In this document: positions 10,381 through 19,802 of the stretch, one piece after another
Numbering within the stretch: position 1 is the stretch's first letter
How the letters are laid out: each line of letters starts with the position of its first letter
DNA from: Candidatus Aerophobota bacterium
GTDB lineage: Bacteria; Aerophobota; Aerophobia; Aerophobales; B3-G15
DNA length: 30,130 nucleotides
Direction of reading: 5' to 3'
Assembly: GCA_014859225.1 (NCBI GenBank)
Contig: JACUUP010000008.1
Coordinates: 1-30,130, forward strand
Notes under the pieces: model-generated
Database searches by the model: none
What the model was told of the DNA's origin: nothing
Seen by the model: only the letters and a program-made list of their open reading frames with translations
Made by a program: the position numbers and the translations under genes

Positions 10381-11709
10381 TTACATTAACCCCATAAATT
10401 GTTGAATAAATTCCCCTTTATCTATTTTTATTAACTCACCATTTTTGCGTTTTTTTACTTCAATCTTTCCCTCTTTTAAGAAAGTCCTGCCAATAATTAC
10501 CTTCAAGGGAATACCCATTAAATCAGAATCTTTAAACTTAACTCCTGCTGAGGTATCTCTGTCATCCCATAAAACATCTATTGAATTTCCCTTCAATTCT
10601 TGGTAAACCTTTTCAGAGAAATCAAAAGTCTGCTCTGAAGTTGGAATGACTACAGCCTTGAAAGGAGCAACTTCTTTTGGCCATATAATACCATCCTCGT
10701 CATTATTTTGCTCAATAATGGCTGCAGGAATACGGGATATTCCAACTCCATAACATCCCATTAAAAGAGGATTTTTTTCTCCTTCTTCATTGGAAAAGAG
10801 AGCTCCCAATTTAGAAGAGTATTTATACCCTAAATGGAAAAGATGACCAACTTCCAGTCCTCTTTTTATCCTTAAAGGAGCATGGCAAACAGAACATTTA
10901 TCTTTTGGCGAAATTAAACTCTCCATAGGCTTTGTATTGGGAGTTTCAACTTCCCCTAAGCATCCCTCACTCACACCTTCATTCTCCTCCACAACAGAGT
11001 TTGCCTTCTCCAGTTTAGAGCAATAACCACAGCTCTCGCACTCTACTATCTTATCCTCTCCCGCAGAGGCAGGTGTTATAAACTCATGGGAAATATCCCC
11101 TCCTATGAGGCCACTTTCTGCTTCAACTAATTTGTATTCCAACCCGCAGCGAGTAAATATTCGCTCATAAGCTCCTCTCATCTCCTGATAAATTTCCTTC
11201 ATCTGAGCCTCATCTTTGCAGAAACTGTAGGCATCTTTCATTAGAAATTCCCTTGACCTGATTATGCCACCCCTCGGGCGAAGTTCATCTCTAAATTTAA
11301 TTTGAATCTGGTAAACAACAACGGGCAATCTCCTGTAAGAGGTTAATATCTCTTTTGCTAAATCTGTAACAATCTCCTCATGGGTAGGGGAAAGAACAAG
11401 CCAGTTTCCTTTACGGTCCTGAAAGCGCAAAAGCTCCTCTCCGTACTCATCCCACCTCCCACTAATTTTCCAGAGTTCAGCCGGCTGGACAAAAGGCAAA
11501 AGAAACTCCTGTGCTCCAACTGCATTCATCTCATCCCTTACAACAGAAACAACCTTATCCAGTACCCTGAATCCCAAAGGTAAAAAAGAATAAATTCCAG
11601 AAGTTACCTGTTTTATCAGCCCGGCTCTTAACATTAATCTGTGACTTACAAATTCTGTTTCCGCAGGAGCTTCCTTGGTGGTAGAAAAAAGATAGCGCGA
11701 AAGTCTCAC
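10381..11709 (-). CDS. proS: Prolyl-tRNA synthetase lacking the INS editing domain
   Basis: A class II synthetase charging tRNA-Pro. Motif 2 is at about 139-163 (FRDELRPRGG, then EFLMKDAYSF), motif 3 at 315-334 (LLMGCYGVGISR), and the anticodon-binding domain at about 350-442. The bacterial-type core is clear (RGLEVGHLFHLGYKYS), but at 442 residues the protein is some 130 shorter than usual. The roughly 180-residue INS domain that clears Ala-tRNA-Pro is absent: residues 256-270, where it would sit, are only a short linker. Cysteines C224, C227, C230, C250, C272 and C275 flank the deletion and may hold zinc. The start is GTG at 11709, with AGAGG upstream; it is the first gene of its operon. 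Confidence 0.95.
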   Translation of the reverse strand: MRLSRYLFSTTKEAPAETEFVSHRLMLRAGLIKQVTSGIYSFLPLGFRVLDKVVSVVRDEMNAVGAQEFLLPFVQPAELWKISGRWDEYGEELLRFQDRKGNWLVLSPTHEEIVTDLAKEILTSYRRLPVVVYQIQIKFRDELRPRGGIIRSREFLMKDAYSFCKDEAQMKEIYQEMRGAYERIFTRCGLEYKLVEAESGLIGGDISHEFITPASAGEDKIVECESCGYCSKLEKANSVVEENEGVSEGCLGEVETPNTKPMESLISPKDKCSVCHAPLRIKRGLEVGHLFHLGYKYSSKLGALFSNEEGEKNPLLMGCYGVGISRIPAAIIEQNNDEDGIIWPKEVAPFKAVVIPTSEQTFDFSEKVYQELKGNSIDVLWDDRDTSAGVKFKDSDLMGIPLKVIIGRTFLKEGKIEVKKRKNGELIKIDKGEFIQQFMGLM

Positions 11710-13558: not shown

Positions 13559-14797
13559 TTAAAAAAGGCTTAACTGTTCAGCTTTTCCTTCCCCTTCTTC
13601 CTCCTCATCAAAAATTTTAACCTTACCGTATACACCATCAAAACCGCACTTAATCTTTACCTTACCCTCTCTCATCCTTTTAATCCCCTCCACTACACGC
13701 TCAGGAATAAATCCATGCATATCTTTTAGAGAAACTTCTAAAAGAACATTCATTTCTCCATCATAGTGGTTGACAATCCGGGTGTAGGTTTCGCCCACTA
13801 ACTTACTTGCAGGCTTTTTCTGTATAGCTTCAGCTACAATCTCCCGCAGAGGAACTATTCTTTTAAAAGGTATGGCATTTTCTGGCTTGAAGCCTTCAGG
13901 TCTATCGGCAAGCTGCTCCACTCGATTCAAAACCCCTACGGTTACAGCTTTTTTACAAACCGGGCAAATCCCATTGTATTTTTTTGTTTCTTCTGGCGAT
14001 AAACTTATATCGCAGTTTCTATGCCCGTCATAATGATACTTTCCTTCCTGAGGGAAAAACTCAATGGTATATAAAATTTTTTGGGGGTCTTTTTGTTTTA
14101 TAGCTTCAAGTATTGCCCTGTAACCCATCTCTACATTGAAGATATTTGCTTCTCTACCTATTTTCTCAGGACTGTGGGCGTCTGAACAGCTTATTAAGGC
14201 GATTTTATCAAGAGAACTAAGCCGCCAATTCATAGAAGGGTCAGAGGATAAACCGGTTTCTCCTGCCAGGATATATCTGGAACAATCTTCAAAGCACTCT
14301 TCAATAGAATCAAAACCAGAGTTTGACCCAAAAAGAGAAAACCAGGGCGTCCATATATGCGAGGGCACCACAAAAACACGCGCATCTATTTGCATCACCA
14401 GTTCCACAAGATGTTTAGCCTCTAACTTCAAAATAGGGCGACCATCAGAATAAAGGTCTCCAAATCTTTCTAATTTGCCGTTTATCTTCTCTACTATGTC
14501 AAAATCAGGTGCAAAAATAATATTGTGGATTTTTCTAACTTTTCCCTCTTTGTAAAATATGTTGTTTACCTCACAGGTTAGTATAAAATGCGTCCTGCCG
14601 TATTTAAATATACCAGGATGAGCGGGAATAAGGGTTTTCTTGAGGTGAGCACACCAGAGAGGGTGGGTAAAATCTCCAGTTCCAAGTAAGTTAATACCCT
14701 TCATCTGAGCAGCCCTATCCAGGTTAGGAATGTCCATATTCTTAGAGGTAGCCCGGCTATACCTGGAATGAATATGAAAATCAGCTATAAAGGTCAT
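13559..14797 (-). CDS. Endonuclease Q-like PHP-domain nuclease with C-terminal clamp motif
   Basis: The protein (412 residues) has a PHP metal-dependent phosphoesterase domain at 1-250: H8-x-H10, D42, E76, H91, H147, D206 and H208 are in the positions expected of metal ligands. A cysteine-rich insert follows (C262, then CPVCKK with C278 and C281), as in archaeal endonuclease Q, which nicks DNA 5' of uracil, hypoxanthine, xanthine or abasic sites. The region 350-396 (GKVKIKCGFDGVYGKVKIF) also fits that family (TIGR00375-type). An acidic linker leads to the very last residues QLSLF, an ideal bacterial beta-clamp-binding pentapeptide. The gene starts 3 bp after the RtcB-like gene. Activity is inferred from family; the nuclease call is strong, the exact lesion range is not. 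Confidence 0.82.
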   Translation of the reverse strand: MTFIADFHIHSRYSRATSKNMDIPNLDRAAQMKGINLLGTGDFTHPLWCAHLKKTLIPAHPGIFKYGRTHFILTCEVNNIFYKEGKVRKIHNIIFAPDFDIVEKINGKLERFGDLYSDGRPILKLEAKHLVELVMQIDARVFVVPSHIWTPWFSLFGSNSGFDSIEECFEDCSRYILAGETGLSSDPSMNWRLSSLDKIALISCSDAHSPEKIGREANIFNVEMGYRAILEAIKQKDPQKILYTIEFFPQEGKYHYDGHRNCDISLSPEETKKYNGICPVCKKAVTVGVLNRVEQLADRPEGFKPENAIPFKRIVPLREIVAEAIQKKPASKLVGETYTRIVNHYDGEMNVLLEVSLKDMHGFIPERVVEGIKRMREGKVKIKCGFDGVYGKVKIFDEEEEGEGKAEQLSLF

Positions 14798-14800
14798 AAA

Positions 14801-15994
14801 CTATACCTTCACAACATAAAGCGGGATGAGCTTTGCTACAATCTCCGCCATATCAAGTTCCATCACTTTGAGCAAAACTTCCCTTCCTCTAAACTGGTAA
14901 GGGATATCCCTTGTATTAGAGATAATTTGTTTACCTCTGTCGTTGGCAACATCCGTTTTAAAATACCTTTTTTCTCCCACCTCATAAACTTCCTCTACAT
15001 TTAAAAGATGGGGAAAAACATAACCTCCACCGTGGGGAATAATATTTGCCTTTTCTAAATAATCATACACGCCAAGCTTTTTGCTTCTATTTTCAAAACC
15101 AAGAGCATCAATTACCTCACAGCTTAAATTTGGCTTACCTCTTAAAAGATATGCTGGAAGGTCGGACCTTAATGTTAAAGGATAGAGCTTGTTATGAAAA
15201 TCATCTATAAAATGACAACCAAGCAAAATCTCATTGTAGTTTAAAAGGCCCTGGTGATTTTCATTAAAGATAAGCTCATAATCACAAAACAAATGCTTTG
15301 CTACAAGTTCTCTTTTTTTCTTGGAAAAATTATGGGCAAACTGATATAATTTAAAAAAACGCTGTGCATTCTTTCCTTCCGCAAGATAAAGCATGCCAAA
15401 AGGAGTATCAAATTTAGTTGCTGCCTCCTTAAGCGAAGCTGATTCATCCCAGTAAAGTCCCCACTTACAGGGACTTTTCTCTTTTAACTCATTGGCTGAG
15501 CCGTGGATTATAAATAGATAAGGCGGAAGATTAACATCTCTTCTGGGTTTAGCGGAAAATATATCAATAAAATGGTTACCTTTACTAAAATCCCATTCAA
15601 CCTCTACATCATCAATAATATTAACATGGGTCTGGAAATGCTCAATTTTTTTTAAAAGGTCGTGCTCATCCGGTAGTTTATACATACCACCCACCAGCAT
15701 TCCGCAAGCATTGGGTTTTGTATCCAGCACTATAACTTCCTCCTCACCTTTTCCCCAGGAAATTTTCCCCCCATATCCAAAACCGCTCATCCACCTTCCC
15801 CTGTTCCGGGTTATAGTCATATCTGGAGACCCAATAAAAACTGCCAGAGGATAAAGACCCATCTTTTGCTGCCAGTAATGTATTTTGGCGAGCCCGTAGC
15901 GCATATTAGATTTGCAAAGTTTACTTCCACTATCAGTGAGGCCGGTAGAAAAAATATGCTCCTCAGCCTGATTTAAAAGCTCCTGCCTATTCAT
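14801..15994 (-). CDS. Compact, divergent RtcB-like RNA ligase family protein
   Basis: At first sight a hypothetical protein of 397 residues, it shows the RtcB (RNA 3'-phosphate/5'-hydroxyl ligase) landmarks in order. C97 in NACGM resembles DIGCGM; N140-H141 in KGNHFIDIF resembles GNHFIEV; H164 in FIIHGSAN resembles IHSGSRG; H247 lies in ENHQGLLNYN; H321 in PHGGGY resembles the guanylylated HGAGR; and the C-terminal KLIPLYVVKV resembles RLRPLGVVKG with K396. Spacings H247-H321 (74) and H321-K396 (75) nearly equal those of Pyrococcus RtcB (75 and 76). The stretch between C97 and H141 is only 44 residues rather than about 105, and the whole is about 80 shorter. The start overlaps the HD gene by 8 bp. 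Ligase activity is inference. Confidence 0.68.
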   Translation of the reverse strand: MNRQELLNQAEEHIFSTGLTDSGSKLCKSNMRYGLAKIHYWQQKMGLYPLAVFIGSPDMTITRNRGRWMSGFGYGGKISWGKGEEEVIVLDTKPNACGMLVGGMYKLPDEHDLLKKIEHFQTHVNIIDDVEVEWDFSKGNHFIDIFSAKPRRDVNLPPYLFIIHGSANELKEKSPCKWGLYWDESASLKEAATKFDTPFGMLYLAEGKNAQRFFKLYQFAHNFSKKKRELVAKHLFCDYELIFNENHQGLLNYNEILLGCHFIDDFHNKLYPLTLRSDLPAYLLRGKPNLSCEVIDALGFENRSKKLGVYDYLEKANIIPHGGGYVFPHLLNVEEVYEVGEKRYFKTDVANDRGKQIISNTRDIPYQFRGREVLLKVMELDMAEIVAKLIPLYVVKV

Positions 15995-16655
15995 CTTCCA
16001 CCTTCACTTTAGTTAAATTGGGGCGGGGGAAGGGAATTTCCTTTACTCCTTTCAACCTGTTTCCTATATCTCTTTTAAGTTTTTGTACAAAAAAGAGAGT
16101 TTCCTCATGAGCCTCACGTCCTATCTCCCTGCTCTCCTTGAATATGAGCTTGTTGTAATCCTCACTTCTTCTAATTATCACCTTTTCAATAATATCCTCA
16201 AGTGAGCCTTTCTTGCCGATTATTCCCCGTAAAAGTCCAACCCATCCAAACCTATCCAGAGTATCCGCATCATAAACTATTTTTTCTTCCATTGTCTCAG
16301 GAGGGATATGGGAAGTGGAGGTATGACGGGTTACAATCCTAACAATCCTTTTACCTGTTTCTGCATCAATTTCGGTAGCTTTGAGAAACTGCTCAACAAG
16401 AGCTGCTCCCCTTAATCCATGCAAAATACCACTCAACTGGTCAACTCTCCCCAGGTCATGAAAAAGCGCTCCACATATTAAAACAAAGGGGTCAACCTGG
16501 TCGGGAACTTTCTTAGCTATCTTGATGGCATTTTTAGCTACCTGGAGAACGTGGGAATAGTCATGTCCTTCCGACTCTGCATGTTTATCTCTCACAAACT
16601 CCTCTATCATTTCCAGAAGTTTTATCTCTTTTTTATTCAAGCTGCGTGAGAACAT
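15987..16655 (-). CDS. HD-domain phosphohydrolase
   Basis: The 222-residue protein has an HD metal-binding fold: HDYSH at 31-35, LFHDLGR with H66-D67, the conserved RHTSTSH at 110-116, and the distal Asp in YDADTLD (D130/D132). Such proteins cleave phosphomonoesters or phosphodiesters of nucleotides and small metabolites; the substrate cannot be told. No sensory or (p)ppGpp synthetase domain is present. It starts one base after the etfA stop with GGGAGAAG upstream and overlaps the RtcB-like gene by 8 bp, so it is translated with that gene. Because RtcB needs 2',3'-cyclic phosphate or 3'-phosphate ends, an HD phosphodiesterase partner is an attractive but unproven idea. Confidence 0.85.
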   Translation of the reverse strand: MFSRSLNKKEIKLLEMIEEFVRDKHAESEGHDYSHVLQVAKNAIKIAKKVPDQVDPFVLICGALFHDLGRVDQLSGILHGLRGAALVEQFLKATEIDAETGKRIVRIVTRHTSTSHIPPETMEEKIVYDADTLDRFGWVGLLRGIIGKKGSLEDIIEKVIIRRSEDYNKLIFKESREIGREAHEETLFFVQKLKRDIGNRLKGVKEIPFPRPNLTKVKVEDE

Positions 16656-16656
16656 T

Positions 16657-17856
16657 TTAACTTCTCCCTGAAGATGTATTTTTCAGTTTCTCCATAAGAA
16701 CAGGTAAAAATCTATTCAAATCTTCAACTATGCCGTAAGTTGCTATATTAAAAATGGGAGCCTCCGGGTCCTTATTTATAGCAACAATCACATCCGAGCT
16801 TCTCATTCCTACCTGATGTTGTATTGCCCCGGAGATGCCACAGGCAATATAGAGTTTAGGCTGCACAGTTTTACCGGTTTGTCCAACCTGATGATAAGAA
16901 GGAATCCATCCCGCATCAACAACGGCACGCGATGCCCCCACCGCTCCACCTAAAAGGTCGGCAAGCTCCCTTATAAGGGAAAAATTCTCCGGTCTGCCAA
17001 GACCTCTTCCTCCAGAAATTATTATTTCTGCCTCCTGCAGGTCTACAACATTGGTCTCTTCCTTTATCTTACCTACAATCTTTACCAGCTCATCCTCACT
17101 CCTCAGGTCAGGTTGCAATTTAATAACTTCAGCTGAAGATAATGAAGTAGGCTGCATGGGACGCATAACCTTTGGTCTAACTGTTGCCATTTGGGGACGG
17201 TGGTAGGGAGTAACAATACTTGCCATTATATTTCCACCAAAAGCAGGACGGGTTTGAACAAGGCACCTTTTCTCCTTATCTATATCCAAAGAAGTGCAAT
17301 CTGCAGTAAGACCGGTTTTAAGACGAGCAGCCACCCTGGGAGCTAAATCTCTCCCCATACTCGTAGCTGCCAAAAGAATAATGTCAGGCTTAAATTCTCT
17401 GATAAGGTCAACAAAAACCCTGGTATAAAAACTGGTGCGATACTCAGCTAATAGAGGATGGGAGACAAAAAAAATCCTGTCTACAGGATACTTCTTTAAC
17501 TCATCTACTTTTTCATCTATTGCATCTCCCAAAAAGATAACTGATAAGCTCTCTACAAGAGCATCGGCTAATTTTCTGCCCGCAGCCAAAAGCTCAAATG
17601 TGGCTGGCATAATCTCTCCCTCTCTTTGCTCGGCAAAGACCCAGACACCCCTAAATGCAGAAAGCTCTACCTCCTTTTGTTCTTCCTCCAGGAGTATAGC
17701 ATCAAAAGGGCACTCCTCCACGCAGGCTCCACAAAATGTGCATCCTGGCATAATATGAGCCTTTCCTTCCTCTAATTTTATCAACGAAAAGGGGCAGGCA
17801 GGAATACATTTTTCACACCCCGTGCAACTATCAGATATTATCTTTATTGTAGCCAT
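16657..17856 (-). CDS. etfA: Electron transfer flavoprotein alpha subunit with N-terminal 2[4Fe-4S] ferredoxin domain
   Basis: Residues 1-60 carry two complete ferredoxin motifs: C11, C14, C17, C21 and C39, C42, C45, C49. Residues about 65-399 are a normal EtfA, ending with the FAD-binding region (ISGGRGLGRPENF, VGASRAVVDAGWIP, QVGQTGKTVQPKLYIACGIS, INKDPEAPIF). EtfA forms a heterodimer with EtfB and passes electrons to or from the acyl-CoA dehydrogenase. A fused ferredoxin domain is known from Etf proteins of anaerobes such as the caffeyl-CoA and lactate dehydrogenase complexes, where electrons are bifurcated to ferredoxin. The start overlaps etfB by 13 bp, with GAGGAATC upstream. Confidence 0.95.
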   Translation of the reverse strand: MATIKIISDSCTGCEKCIPACPFSLIKLEEGKAHIMPGCTFCGACVEECPFDAILLEEEQKEVELSAFRGVWVFAEQREGEIMPATFELLAAGRKLADALVESLSVIFLGDAIDEKVDELKKYPVDRIFFVSHPLLAEYRTSFYTRVFVDLIREFKPDIILLAATSMGRDLAPRVAARLKTGLTADCTSLDIDKEKRCLVQTRPAFGGNIMASIVTPYHRPQMATVRPKVMRPMQPTSLSSAEVIKLQPDLRSEDELVKIVGKIKEETNVVDLQEAEIIISGGRGLGRPENFSLIRELADLLGGAVGASRAVVDAGWIPSYHQVGQTGKTVQPKLYIACGISGAIQHQVGMRSSDVIVAINKDPEAPIFNIATYGIVEDLNRFLPVLMEKLKNTSSGRS

Positions 17857-18647
17857 CTTAAAAGATTCCTCTTTTTTATTTCCTCAATAATTTTATCTGC
17901 TTTTTCCTTTATATCACCCTGTATAATCTCCCCTTTTTTGGGCAACCCTGGAGTAAATGTTCTAATCACCCTGGTAGGGGAGCCATCAAGCCCGATTTTA
18001 TCTTGAGCAAGATTTAAAAACCTGTTATCCCATAGCGGGATTTTAATCTTTTTAGCCTTTAAAAGATTCCTCAGGGACGGGTACCTTGGCTCATTTATCT
18101 CCTTGGTAACTGTAATAAGAGCGGGAAGTTTTATCTCCACCACCTCAAAATAATCTTCCAAGGCTCGCTCAGCTCTTATCATGCCATTCTTAATCTCAAT
18201 TTTACGCACATAAGTTAGCTGTGGAATCCCCAGATGTTCAGCAATACCCGGACCTACCTGAGCGGTATCTCCATCAATTGCCTGTTTACCTGCTATTATA
18301 AGGTCAAAATCTCCCAATCTCTTGATAGCCTCTGAGAGAATATAAGAGGTTGCCCAGGTATCCGAGCCAGCAAAACAAGTATCAGATATAAGTATGGCTT
18401 CATCAACTCCCATAGAAAGAGCCTTTCTTAAAGCATCCTCTGCCTGGGGAGGTCCCATAGAAATACAGGTTACAGAAGCAGCGTTTTTTTCCTTTATCCT
18501 TAATGCTTCCTCCAGTGCATTTTCATCAAAGGGGTTAATGATATTTTTTATTCCTTCCCTTACAATGGTATTATCCACAGGATTTACCTTAACTTTGGTA
18601 AGCTCTTCTGTATCTGGAACCTGTTTAATGCAAACAACTATGCGCAA
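17844..18647 (-). CDS. etfB: Electron transfer flavoprotein beta subunit
   Basis: A 267-residue EtfB beginning MRIVVCIKQVPDT, the standard N-terminus. Residues 125-133 read DGDTAQVGP, the form found in bifurcating Etf of anaerobes; respiratory EtfB usually has DDDxxQTG here. With the ferredoxin-fused EtfA, this suggests a bifurcating complex that couples NADH, the acyl-CoA substrate and ferredoxin. The start is TTG at 18647, fixed by AGGAGG eight nt upstream and by the conserved N-terminal sequence. It lies 12 bp after the acyl-CoA dehydrogenase gene. Confidence 0.95.
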   Translation of the reverse strand: MRIVVCIKQVPDTEELTKVKVNPVDNTIVREGIKNIINPFDENALEEALRIKEKNAASVTCISMGPPQAEDALRKALSMGVDEAILISDTCFAGSDTWATSYILSEAIKRLGDFDLIIAGKQAIDGDTAQVGPGIAEHLGIPQLTYVRKIEIKNGMIRAERALEDYFEVVEIKLPALITVTKEINEPRYPSLRNLLKAKKIKIPLWDNRFLNLAQDKIGLDGSPTRVIRTFTPGLPKKGEIIQGDIKEKADKIIEEIKKRNLLRWLQ

Positions 18648-18659
18648 TTTCTCATCCTC

Positions 18660-19802
18660 CTATGTTTCTTTTAAGATTAAATTTGCTATAATTCCTCTCT
18701 GGATTTCAGAAGTTCCTTCTATTATCTCGAAAAGTTTAGCCTCCCTCATATACCTTTCCACCGGATAATCTTTCATATATCCGTAACCTCCTAAGATTTG
18801 CACTGCCTTGGTGGTAACCCACATAGCAGTCTCTGATGCATATAGTTTACCCATGGAGGCATATTTCTCAAAGGGCATTCCCTTGTCCAGTAGCCAGGCG
18901 GCTTTGTAGAGAAACTGACGGGATGCCTCTATCTTTGTAGCCATATCAGCAAGTATATGTTGAACAGCCTGAAAGCTGGAAATGGTGCGCCCAAACTGCA
19001 CCCTTTCTTTAGAATAATCACGCGCCTTTTTAAAGGCAGCCTCAGCTATTCCTAAAGCACCTATACCCACACCAATCCTTCCTGCGGCAAAAGTTTCCAT
19101 CGCTATTTTGAATCCTTTCTTCTCTCCACCAATAAGGTTATTTTCGGGAACCGGGCAATCTTTTAAAATAAGCTCCACATTGGGTAGAGCCTCAAGACCC
19201 ATTTTTCTGAAATGCTGTCCAAAGGAAAAACCTGTGGTTCCTTTTTTTAGAATAAAAGCAGCAAGCCCCCTTGCTCCTCTTTTCCTGTCCAGATTGGCTA
19301 TTATTATATAAATATCTGCTACTTCTCCATTGGTTATAAAAATTTTGTTCCCATTTAAAATGTAGCCATCTGCATCTTTTTTAGCCGATGTTTGAACATT
19401 GCCAGCATCAGAGCCTGCCTCAGGTTCAGTAAGAGCAAAAGCTCCCAGGGATGTCCCCTTAGCTAAGGGAGGAAGGAACGTGCTTTTTTGTTCCTCGCTC
19501 CCAAAATTTAAAAGGGGAAAGGTGCAAAGAAGATTGGCACCAAAGATAAGACCGGTTGTAGCGCAAGCTCTGGAGATTCTTTCTGCCACCAGGGCCCAGG
19601 TAAGATAATCCATTTCTAAGCCTGCGTACTTTTTAGGAATGGTGATTCCAAAAAGGTCAAGACTGGCTAACCTTTCAATGTTACCTCGTGGAAACTCACC
19701 TTTTTCTGCCACTTCATCAGCTAAAGGTTCAATTTCTTTTTCACTCACCTCATCAACCAACTCCAGAATCATCTTTTGCTCTTCTGTCAAATCAAAGTCC
19801 AT
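18660..19802 (-). CDS. Acyl-CoA dehydrogenase (short/medium-chain type)
   Basis: The flavoenzyme (380 residues) introduces or reduces the alpha-beta double bond of an acyl-CoA. Signature 1 is ALTEPEAGSDAGNVQT, signature 2 is VQILGGYGYMKDYPVERYMRE, and the catalytic base is E362 in EIIEGTSEIQR. Length and layout equal butyryl-CoA dehydrogenase and relatives. It directly precedes etfB and etfA, its expected electron partners. No thiolase, crotonase or hydroxyacyl-CoA dehydrogenase lies in the window, so chain length and direction (oxidation or crotonyl-CoA-type reduction) stay open. The ATG has GGAGAGGGAGA upstream and lies inside the last 11 bp of ruvC. Confidence 0.95.
   Translation of the reverse strand: MDFDLTEEQKMILELVDEVSEKEIEPLADEVAEKGEFPRGNIERLASLDLFGITIPKKYAGLEMDYLTWALVAERISRACATTGLIFGANLLCTFPLLNFGSEEQKSTFLPPLAKGTSLGAFALTEPEAGSDAGNVQTSAKKDADGYILNGNKIFITNGEVADIYIIIANLDRKRGARGLAAFILKKGTTGFSFGQHFRKMGLEALPNVELILKDCPVPENNLIGGEKKGFKIAMETFAAGRIGVGIGALGIAEAAFKKARDYSKERVQFGRTISSFQAVQHILADMATKIEASRQFLYKAAWLLDKGMPFEKYASMGKLYASETAMWVTTKAVQILGGYGYMKDYPVERYMREAKLFEIIEGTSEIQRGIIANLILKET

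Follow-up and report, generated by a model that had tools for sequence, protein, structure and literature searches.

A putative new RtcB-superfamily branch in Candidatus Aerophobota and Asgard archaea

The window analysed here, a stretch of 30,130 nucleotides from the Candidatus Aerophobota contig JACUUP010000008.1, carries on its minus strand, at positions 14801–15994, an ORF encoding a protein of 397 aa, hereafter called RLP (RtcB-like protein). That RLP is a homologue of RtcB is hardly open to doubt, and the protein is best read as a new, unannotated branch within the RtcB ligase superfamily. To our knowledge, RtcB is the known ligase family which uses a guanylylated His and joins 3'-phosphate ends, and nucleic acid is the substrate of every member described. 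A literature search retrieved no paper on an RtcB-like branch of this sort. We lean slightly towards the view that RLP is a metal-dependent, probably His-nucleotidylating enzyme, the substrate of which would be a phosphate or cyclic phosphate other than tRNA exons.

The RLP gene starts with ATG and ends with a stop codon at 14801–14803. The gene upstream (15987–16655, minus strand) encodes an HD-domain phosphohydrolase (Pfam HD, E 1.5e-13), the probable partner of RLP, and shares 8 nt with the beginning of the RLP gene. Next in the operon after RLP, with 3 nt between the RLP stop and its own start, is a gene encoding a PHP-type protein (13559–14797, minus strand), which scores below the TIGR00375 cut-off. 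The 8-nt overlap and the 3-nt gap indicate that RLP resides in a tight operon. Genes for ETF, acyl-CoA dehydrogenase, RuvC and dihydropteroate synthase are located upstream. The ferredoxin-fused ETF alpha, the ETF beta and the acyl-CoA dehydrogenase encoded at 16657–19802 of the window resemble subunits of clostridial acryloyl-CoA reductase, at scores below the curated cut-offs. The prolyl-tRNA synthetase encoded at 10381–11709 measures 442 aa, versus 565 aa in two relatives. Its profile match is split into two stretches, so that the protein seems to lack the editing domain, a middle insertion; L007 looks similar.

Taken alone, RLP had no match among the Pfam, NCBIfam and PADLOC models, and its only PHROGs match was at chance level. 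Searching the PDB with the single sequence gave nothing usable, and a profile search of PDB sequences returned weak unrelated matches only (NiFeSe hydrogenase, QueF-like). The first-pass annotation, made from the sequence without database searches, had called the protein a hidden RtcB-like ligase, and hidden is a fitting term, as no family model catches RLP. Among 24 family members tested, the gathering cut-off of the Pfam RtcB model (PF01139) was not reached, the best E value being 0.016, in 2 members. One member matched TIGR03073 (E 0.03), and the RLP family profile weakly found a canonical RtcB (L104).

The relationship is evident in the predicted structure and in profile comparisons, two of the checks suggested by the same annotation. 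An AlphaFold model of RLP was built with 23 relatives (mean pLDDT 92). When the model was compared to the PDB with Foldseek, 14 of 14 matches at E <= 0.001 were RtcB, with E values of 8e-8 to 2e-5. In VIA-align, the model superposes on ten RtcB entries, including those of Pyrococcus, zebrafish and man, with Z scores of 19.7–22.5 over 302–318 residues at 3.1–3.4 A, and the next fold reaches a Z of 5.6 only. The predicted RtcB fold spans residues 3–397 of RLP, and no rival fold is convincing. The first-pass annotation thereby withstood one half of the refutation it had proposed for itself, a predicted structure devoid of this fold. Profile-profile comparisons of RLP and RtcB gave E values of 1.4e-4, 3.5e-7 and 5.3e-12 with increasing breadth of the profiles. 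The broadest hhalign comparison (probability 97.5) yields an alignment that runs from GYGG and CG in the N-terminal part, through GNHF, the IH motif and the long helix, to HGxG and the C-terminal end with its P-x-x-x-K. A fold matching RtcB only and a profile signal that grows argue that RLP is homologous to RtcB.

RLP shares with RtcB (PF01139; PDB 1uc2, 4dwq, 7p3b) the fold, the order of the motifs, the metal Cys/His set, the His nucleophile, HGxG and the C-terminal P-x-x-x-K. Identity to RtcB is 15–17%, and the score is under the Pfam cut-off. Similarities were also noticed with the compact RtcB paralogues (TIGR03073 release_rtcB / RtcB2; Myxococcus RtcB3), which measure 350–400 aa and make an extra copy besides the canonical RtcB. 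Unlike RLP, these paralogues are caught by PF01139. The RLP profile matched a set of divergent RtcBs with an E value of 1.7e-10. The compactness of RLP, initially taken as a distinctive trait, was rejected as a marker of the branch because other RtcB-family proteins of 350–400 aa are known.

Conservation was scored in 82 aligned members of the RLP family, with identities down to about 21%. C97, H141, H164, H247, H321, G75, G98, R228 and G322 are invariant (82/82). The residues on which the first-pass annotation relied (C97, N140-H141, H164, H247, H321, K396) were found in the minus-strand protein at the positions it had assigned to them; since the five Cys and His residues are identical in all members, the motif set is far above chance. 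In Pyrococcus RtcB, roles have been established for Cys98, His203, His234, His329 and His404, the residue that is guanylylated (PMC10630183, PMC8668186). C97 (codon at 15704–15706, minus strand, as are all the codons listed below) is the equivalent of the metal-binding Cys98. N140-H141 (15572–15577) correspond to Asn202-His203 in the GNHF motif, to which they are aligned, and N140 is conserved in 78/82 members. H164 (15503–15505), aligned to the RtcB IH motif, corresponds to His234, and H247 (15254–15256) to His329. H321 (15032–15034), equivalent to the guanylylated His404, is aligned to the HGAG of RtcB, within the sequence HGGGY which, as originally remarked, takes the place of HGAGR. K396 (14807–14809) matches Lys480, a guanine contact, in the C-terminal alignment, and is Lys in 60/82 members. 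The spacings H247-H321 and H321-K396 are indeed 74 and 75, but the Pyrococcus distances with which they had been equated (H329-H404-K480) are 75 and 76, each one residue longer and hence not identical.

The set of residues binding metal A in RtcB (Cys98, His234, His329) is kept as C97, H164 and H247 in all members. In the set binding metal B (Asp95, Cys98, His203), C97 and H141 are similarly kept. Three residues before the Cys, where the absence of Asp had already been noticed, Pro is found in 76/82 members. In a short-RtcB alignment N95 (15710–15712) falls in the column of Asp95, a ligand of the second metal; the assignment is probable, implies a one-residue deletion, and is made in a region where the register is uncertain. 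In contrast to RtcB, the residue in this column is Asn in most members (78/82), the remaining 4 having Asp. Ligation by human RTCB requires all five metal residues (PMC10944509), and the guanylylation step may therefore be altered or lost in RLP. The nucleophile in the HGxG loop is kept, as both H321 and G322 are invariant. In RtcB the nucleophilic His, the HGxG loop and Asn202, the equivalent of N140, contact the nucleotide, Asn202 at the phosphate (PMC8668186).

Arg238 of RtcB contacts RNA phosphates, and the zebrafish ligase is inactive when this residue is lost (PMC12135372). Arg is found at the aligned position in none of the 82 RLP members. The two other mapped RNA contacts of RtcB lie within the segment missing in RLP, or at a variable position. 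The estimate of about 60 residues missing between the metal Cys and GNHF holds, C97 and N140 being 43 residues apart versus the 104 that separate C98 and N202 in Pyrococcus. The position of the guanine-contacting Glu206 varies across members, and K396 is absent in 22/82, being lost in divergent clades, which suggests that the base may not be guanine. The median net charge is -3 in the RLP family versus +3.5 in RtcB, though canonical RtcBs from the same genomes vary. Judging from the residues conserved, RLP has probably kept its chemistry and changed its grip on the substrate.

A first genome scan carried out with the single RLP sequence found no relatives, and a family profile was needed. Out of 17 genomes from the phylum of the host, 5 contain RLP members, as do 81 of 195 Asgard genomes. 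In the phylum around a Bathyarchaeia member 3 of 250 genomes matched, one of the three with a canonical RtcB only. RLPs are also scattered in bins of Woesearchaeota, Nanoarchaeota, Methanocellales, Thermoplasmatota, Chloroflexi and Actinomycetes. Bacterial RLPs are few, and a quick tree places them in one cluster among archaeal ones (SH-aLRT 92), which suggests that bacteria acquired them from archaea, keeping in mind that bins can be mixed. Viral contigs, phage and plasmid records contained no RLP relative, and a viral or plasmid origin is thus unsupported.

A separate canonical RtcB is present in 18 of 20 genomes carrying RLP. In the host, this gene adjoins archease on another contig (C209), away from RLP. 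The only archease of the host is not beside RLP, and the pairing of RtcB with archease is absent at the RLP locus. In the canonical RtcB of the host (G000 contig C209:10960-13803; L001, L002), PF01139 matches two separate stretches of one frame of 994 aa, as if interrupted by an intein, and long split RtcB frames are found also in other genomes of the same phylum (G003, G007, G008, G010, G015).

Genes encoding one HD subfamily (alignment A5) adjoin RLP not only in the phylum of the host but also in Nano- and Woesearchaeota and numerous Asgard genomes, and the gene order is not always the same; in a Thermoplasmatota genome the HD gene is three genes away from RLP. RLP is found in 16 of 17 Asgard genomes with the HD subfamily, versus 81/195 overall (Fisher p 3e-6, to be taken as a guide only, the species being related). 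In the phylum of the host, all three genomes with the HD gene have RLP (p 0.015), and in the other two RLP genomes the contig ends within the RLP gene. The H, HD, H and D residues are conserved in the HD partners, which resemble YpgQ/YedJ-type HD phosphohydrolases (PDB 5dqv, 3gw7; profile E 1e-12 to 8e-15). Unlike these, they make a tight subfamily of their own, linked to RLP.

Neighbours other than HD are found in other clades; in that of the window the neighbour evidence is HD only. One divergent Asgard clade has GDPD (PF03009) and calcineurin-like phosphoesterase genes near RLP in 11/18 and 10/18 loci, respectively, in varied orientations. Both recur outside this clade: three genomes of a second clade carry GDPD next to HD and RLP, and a member of the same calcineurin-like phosphoesterase family lies beside HD and RLP in genome G296. 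Asgard genomes tested contain one to nine GDPD genes each, which makes repeated adjacency to RLP by chance unlikely. Altogether, the neighbours of RLP point to phosphoester chemistry. Linkage to the PHP gene was seen in the phylum of the host alone, and PHP was rejected as a conserved partner outside it. Genes for methionyl-tRNA synthetase, VWA, HTH and gamma-glutamyltranspeptidase proteins, found near some Asgard RLPs, seem to reflect synteny within clades, and we did not count them as evidence. An uncharacterised family of 440–460 aa adjoins the RLP gene in three distant genomes (L027:7189-8511, L020:7181-8542, L128/L080), and the member tested has no Pfam match. A small, very divergent RtcB-like clade (L105-L107, L151) resides in a lipid head-group setting, flanked on one side by a glycosyltransferase-like gene and on the other by genes for an NTP transferase, a CDP-alcohol phosphatidyltransferase and an inositol-1-phosphate synthase.

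The absence of Arg238 in all members and the maintenance of a separate canonical RtcB make a different substrate the best supported reading, as the first-pass annotation had ventured when it spoke of a distinct RtcB branch. We rate it as fairly probable, from the residues retained, that RLP is still able to transfer nucleotides; chances are about even that its substrate is other than RNA, a lipid or small-molecule diester included. We infer metals, nucleotidylation, class of substrate and direction of the pathway from the observed fold, homology, residues and gene linkage. RLP would bind one or two Mn2+-like ions, through C97/H164/H247 and perhaps through an altered second site made by N95/C97/H141. 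H321 would attack an NTP, probably GTP, and take the nucleotide, probably GMP. The His-bound nucleotide would activate the phosphate end of the substrate, possibly after opening of a cyclic phosphate, as in RtcB, and the last step could be joining to an alcohol, or release. The phosphate end could be made, trimmed or removed by the HD protein and, in other clades, by GDPD and calcineurin-like phosphoesterases. Several points count against this explanation: the probable second-metal Asp is replaced by Asn in 78/82 members, the Glu206 position is variable and K396 missing in 22/82, neighbour evidence in the clade of the window is confined to HD, and RNA might be bound through other residues.

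The last of these points leads to a different role, possible but rather unlikely, as an RNA-repair ligase: an HD or calcineurin-like protein would heal the ends of damaged RNA, and RLP, holding RNA in a way unlike RtcB, would seal a 3'-phosphate or cyclic phosphate to a 5'-OH. HD and calcineurin-like domains do occur in bacterial proteins that heal RNA ends (HD-Pnk, Pnkp), and homology to RtcB and the catalytic set retained by RLP fit such a role. RtcB paralogues with other activities are on record, as a passage of PMC10630183 cites M. xanthus RtcB1-3 for other types of end joining or capping. Yet the loss of the mapped RNA contacts, starting from Arg238, and, with the reservation made above on canonical RtcBs, the negative median charge are at odds with RNA repair, which moreover offers no obvious role for GDPD and lipid-type neighbours.

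Asn in the Asp95 column, the variable Glu206 and the loss of K396 in divergent clades would also suit a phosphoesterase or cyclic phosphodiesterase that simply depends on metal, in which metal and His remain and the nucleotide is never attached; the neighbours, too, are without exception phosphoester hydrolases. Residues contacting the nucleotide would be superfluous in a hydrolase, and the near invariance of the His nucleophile, the HGxG loop and N140 makes this reading improbable. Finally, a chance resemblance between RtcB and an unrelated protein, to which one might resort because RLP itself has no Pfam or NCBIfam match and a sequence profile search of the PDB revealed no relative, is in effect refuted by a fold match to RtcB alone (Z >19), a profile E value of 5e-12 and five positions invariant in 82/82 members.

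Within the preferred reading of RLP as an RtcB-superfamily enzyme with another substrate, we tentatively consider, at less than even chances, that the fold has been put, chiefly in Asgard, to a use unrelated to RNA. By means of a His-bound nucleotide and metal, RLP would process the cyclic or diester phosphates that small molecules or lipid head groups carry. Glycerophosphodiesters and inositol phosphates would be candidate substrates, and the HD, GDPD and calcineurin-like phosphoesterases would take part in the same task. With neighbours that are conserved, the question of the RLP substrate becomes approachable. If the reading is correct, the catalytic plan of RtcB would extend beyond the joining of RNA, and a gene family of Asgard archaea that lacks annotation would gain a testable enzyme activity.
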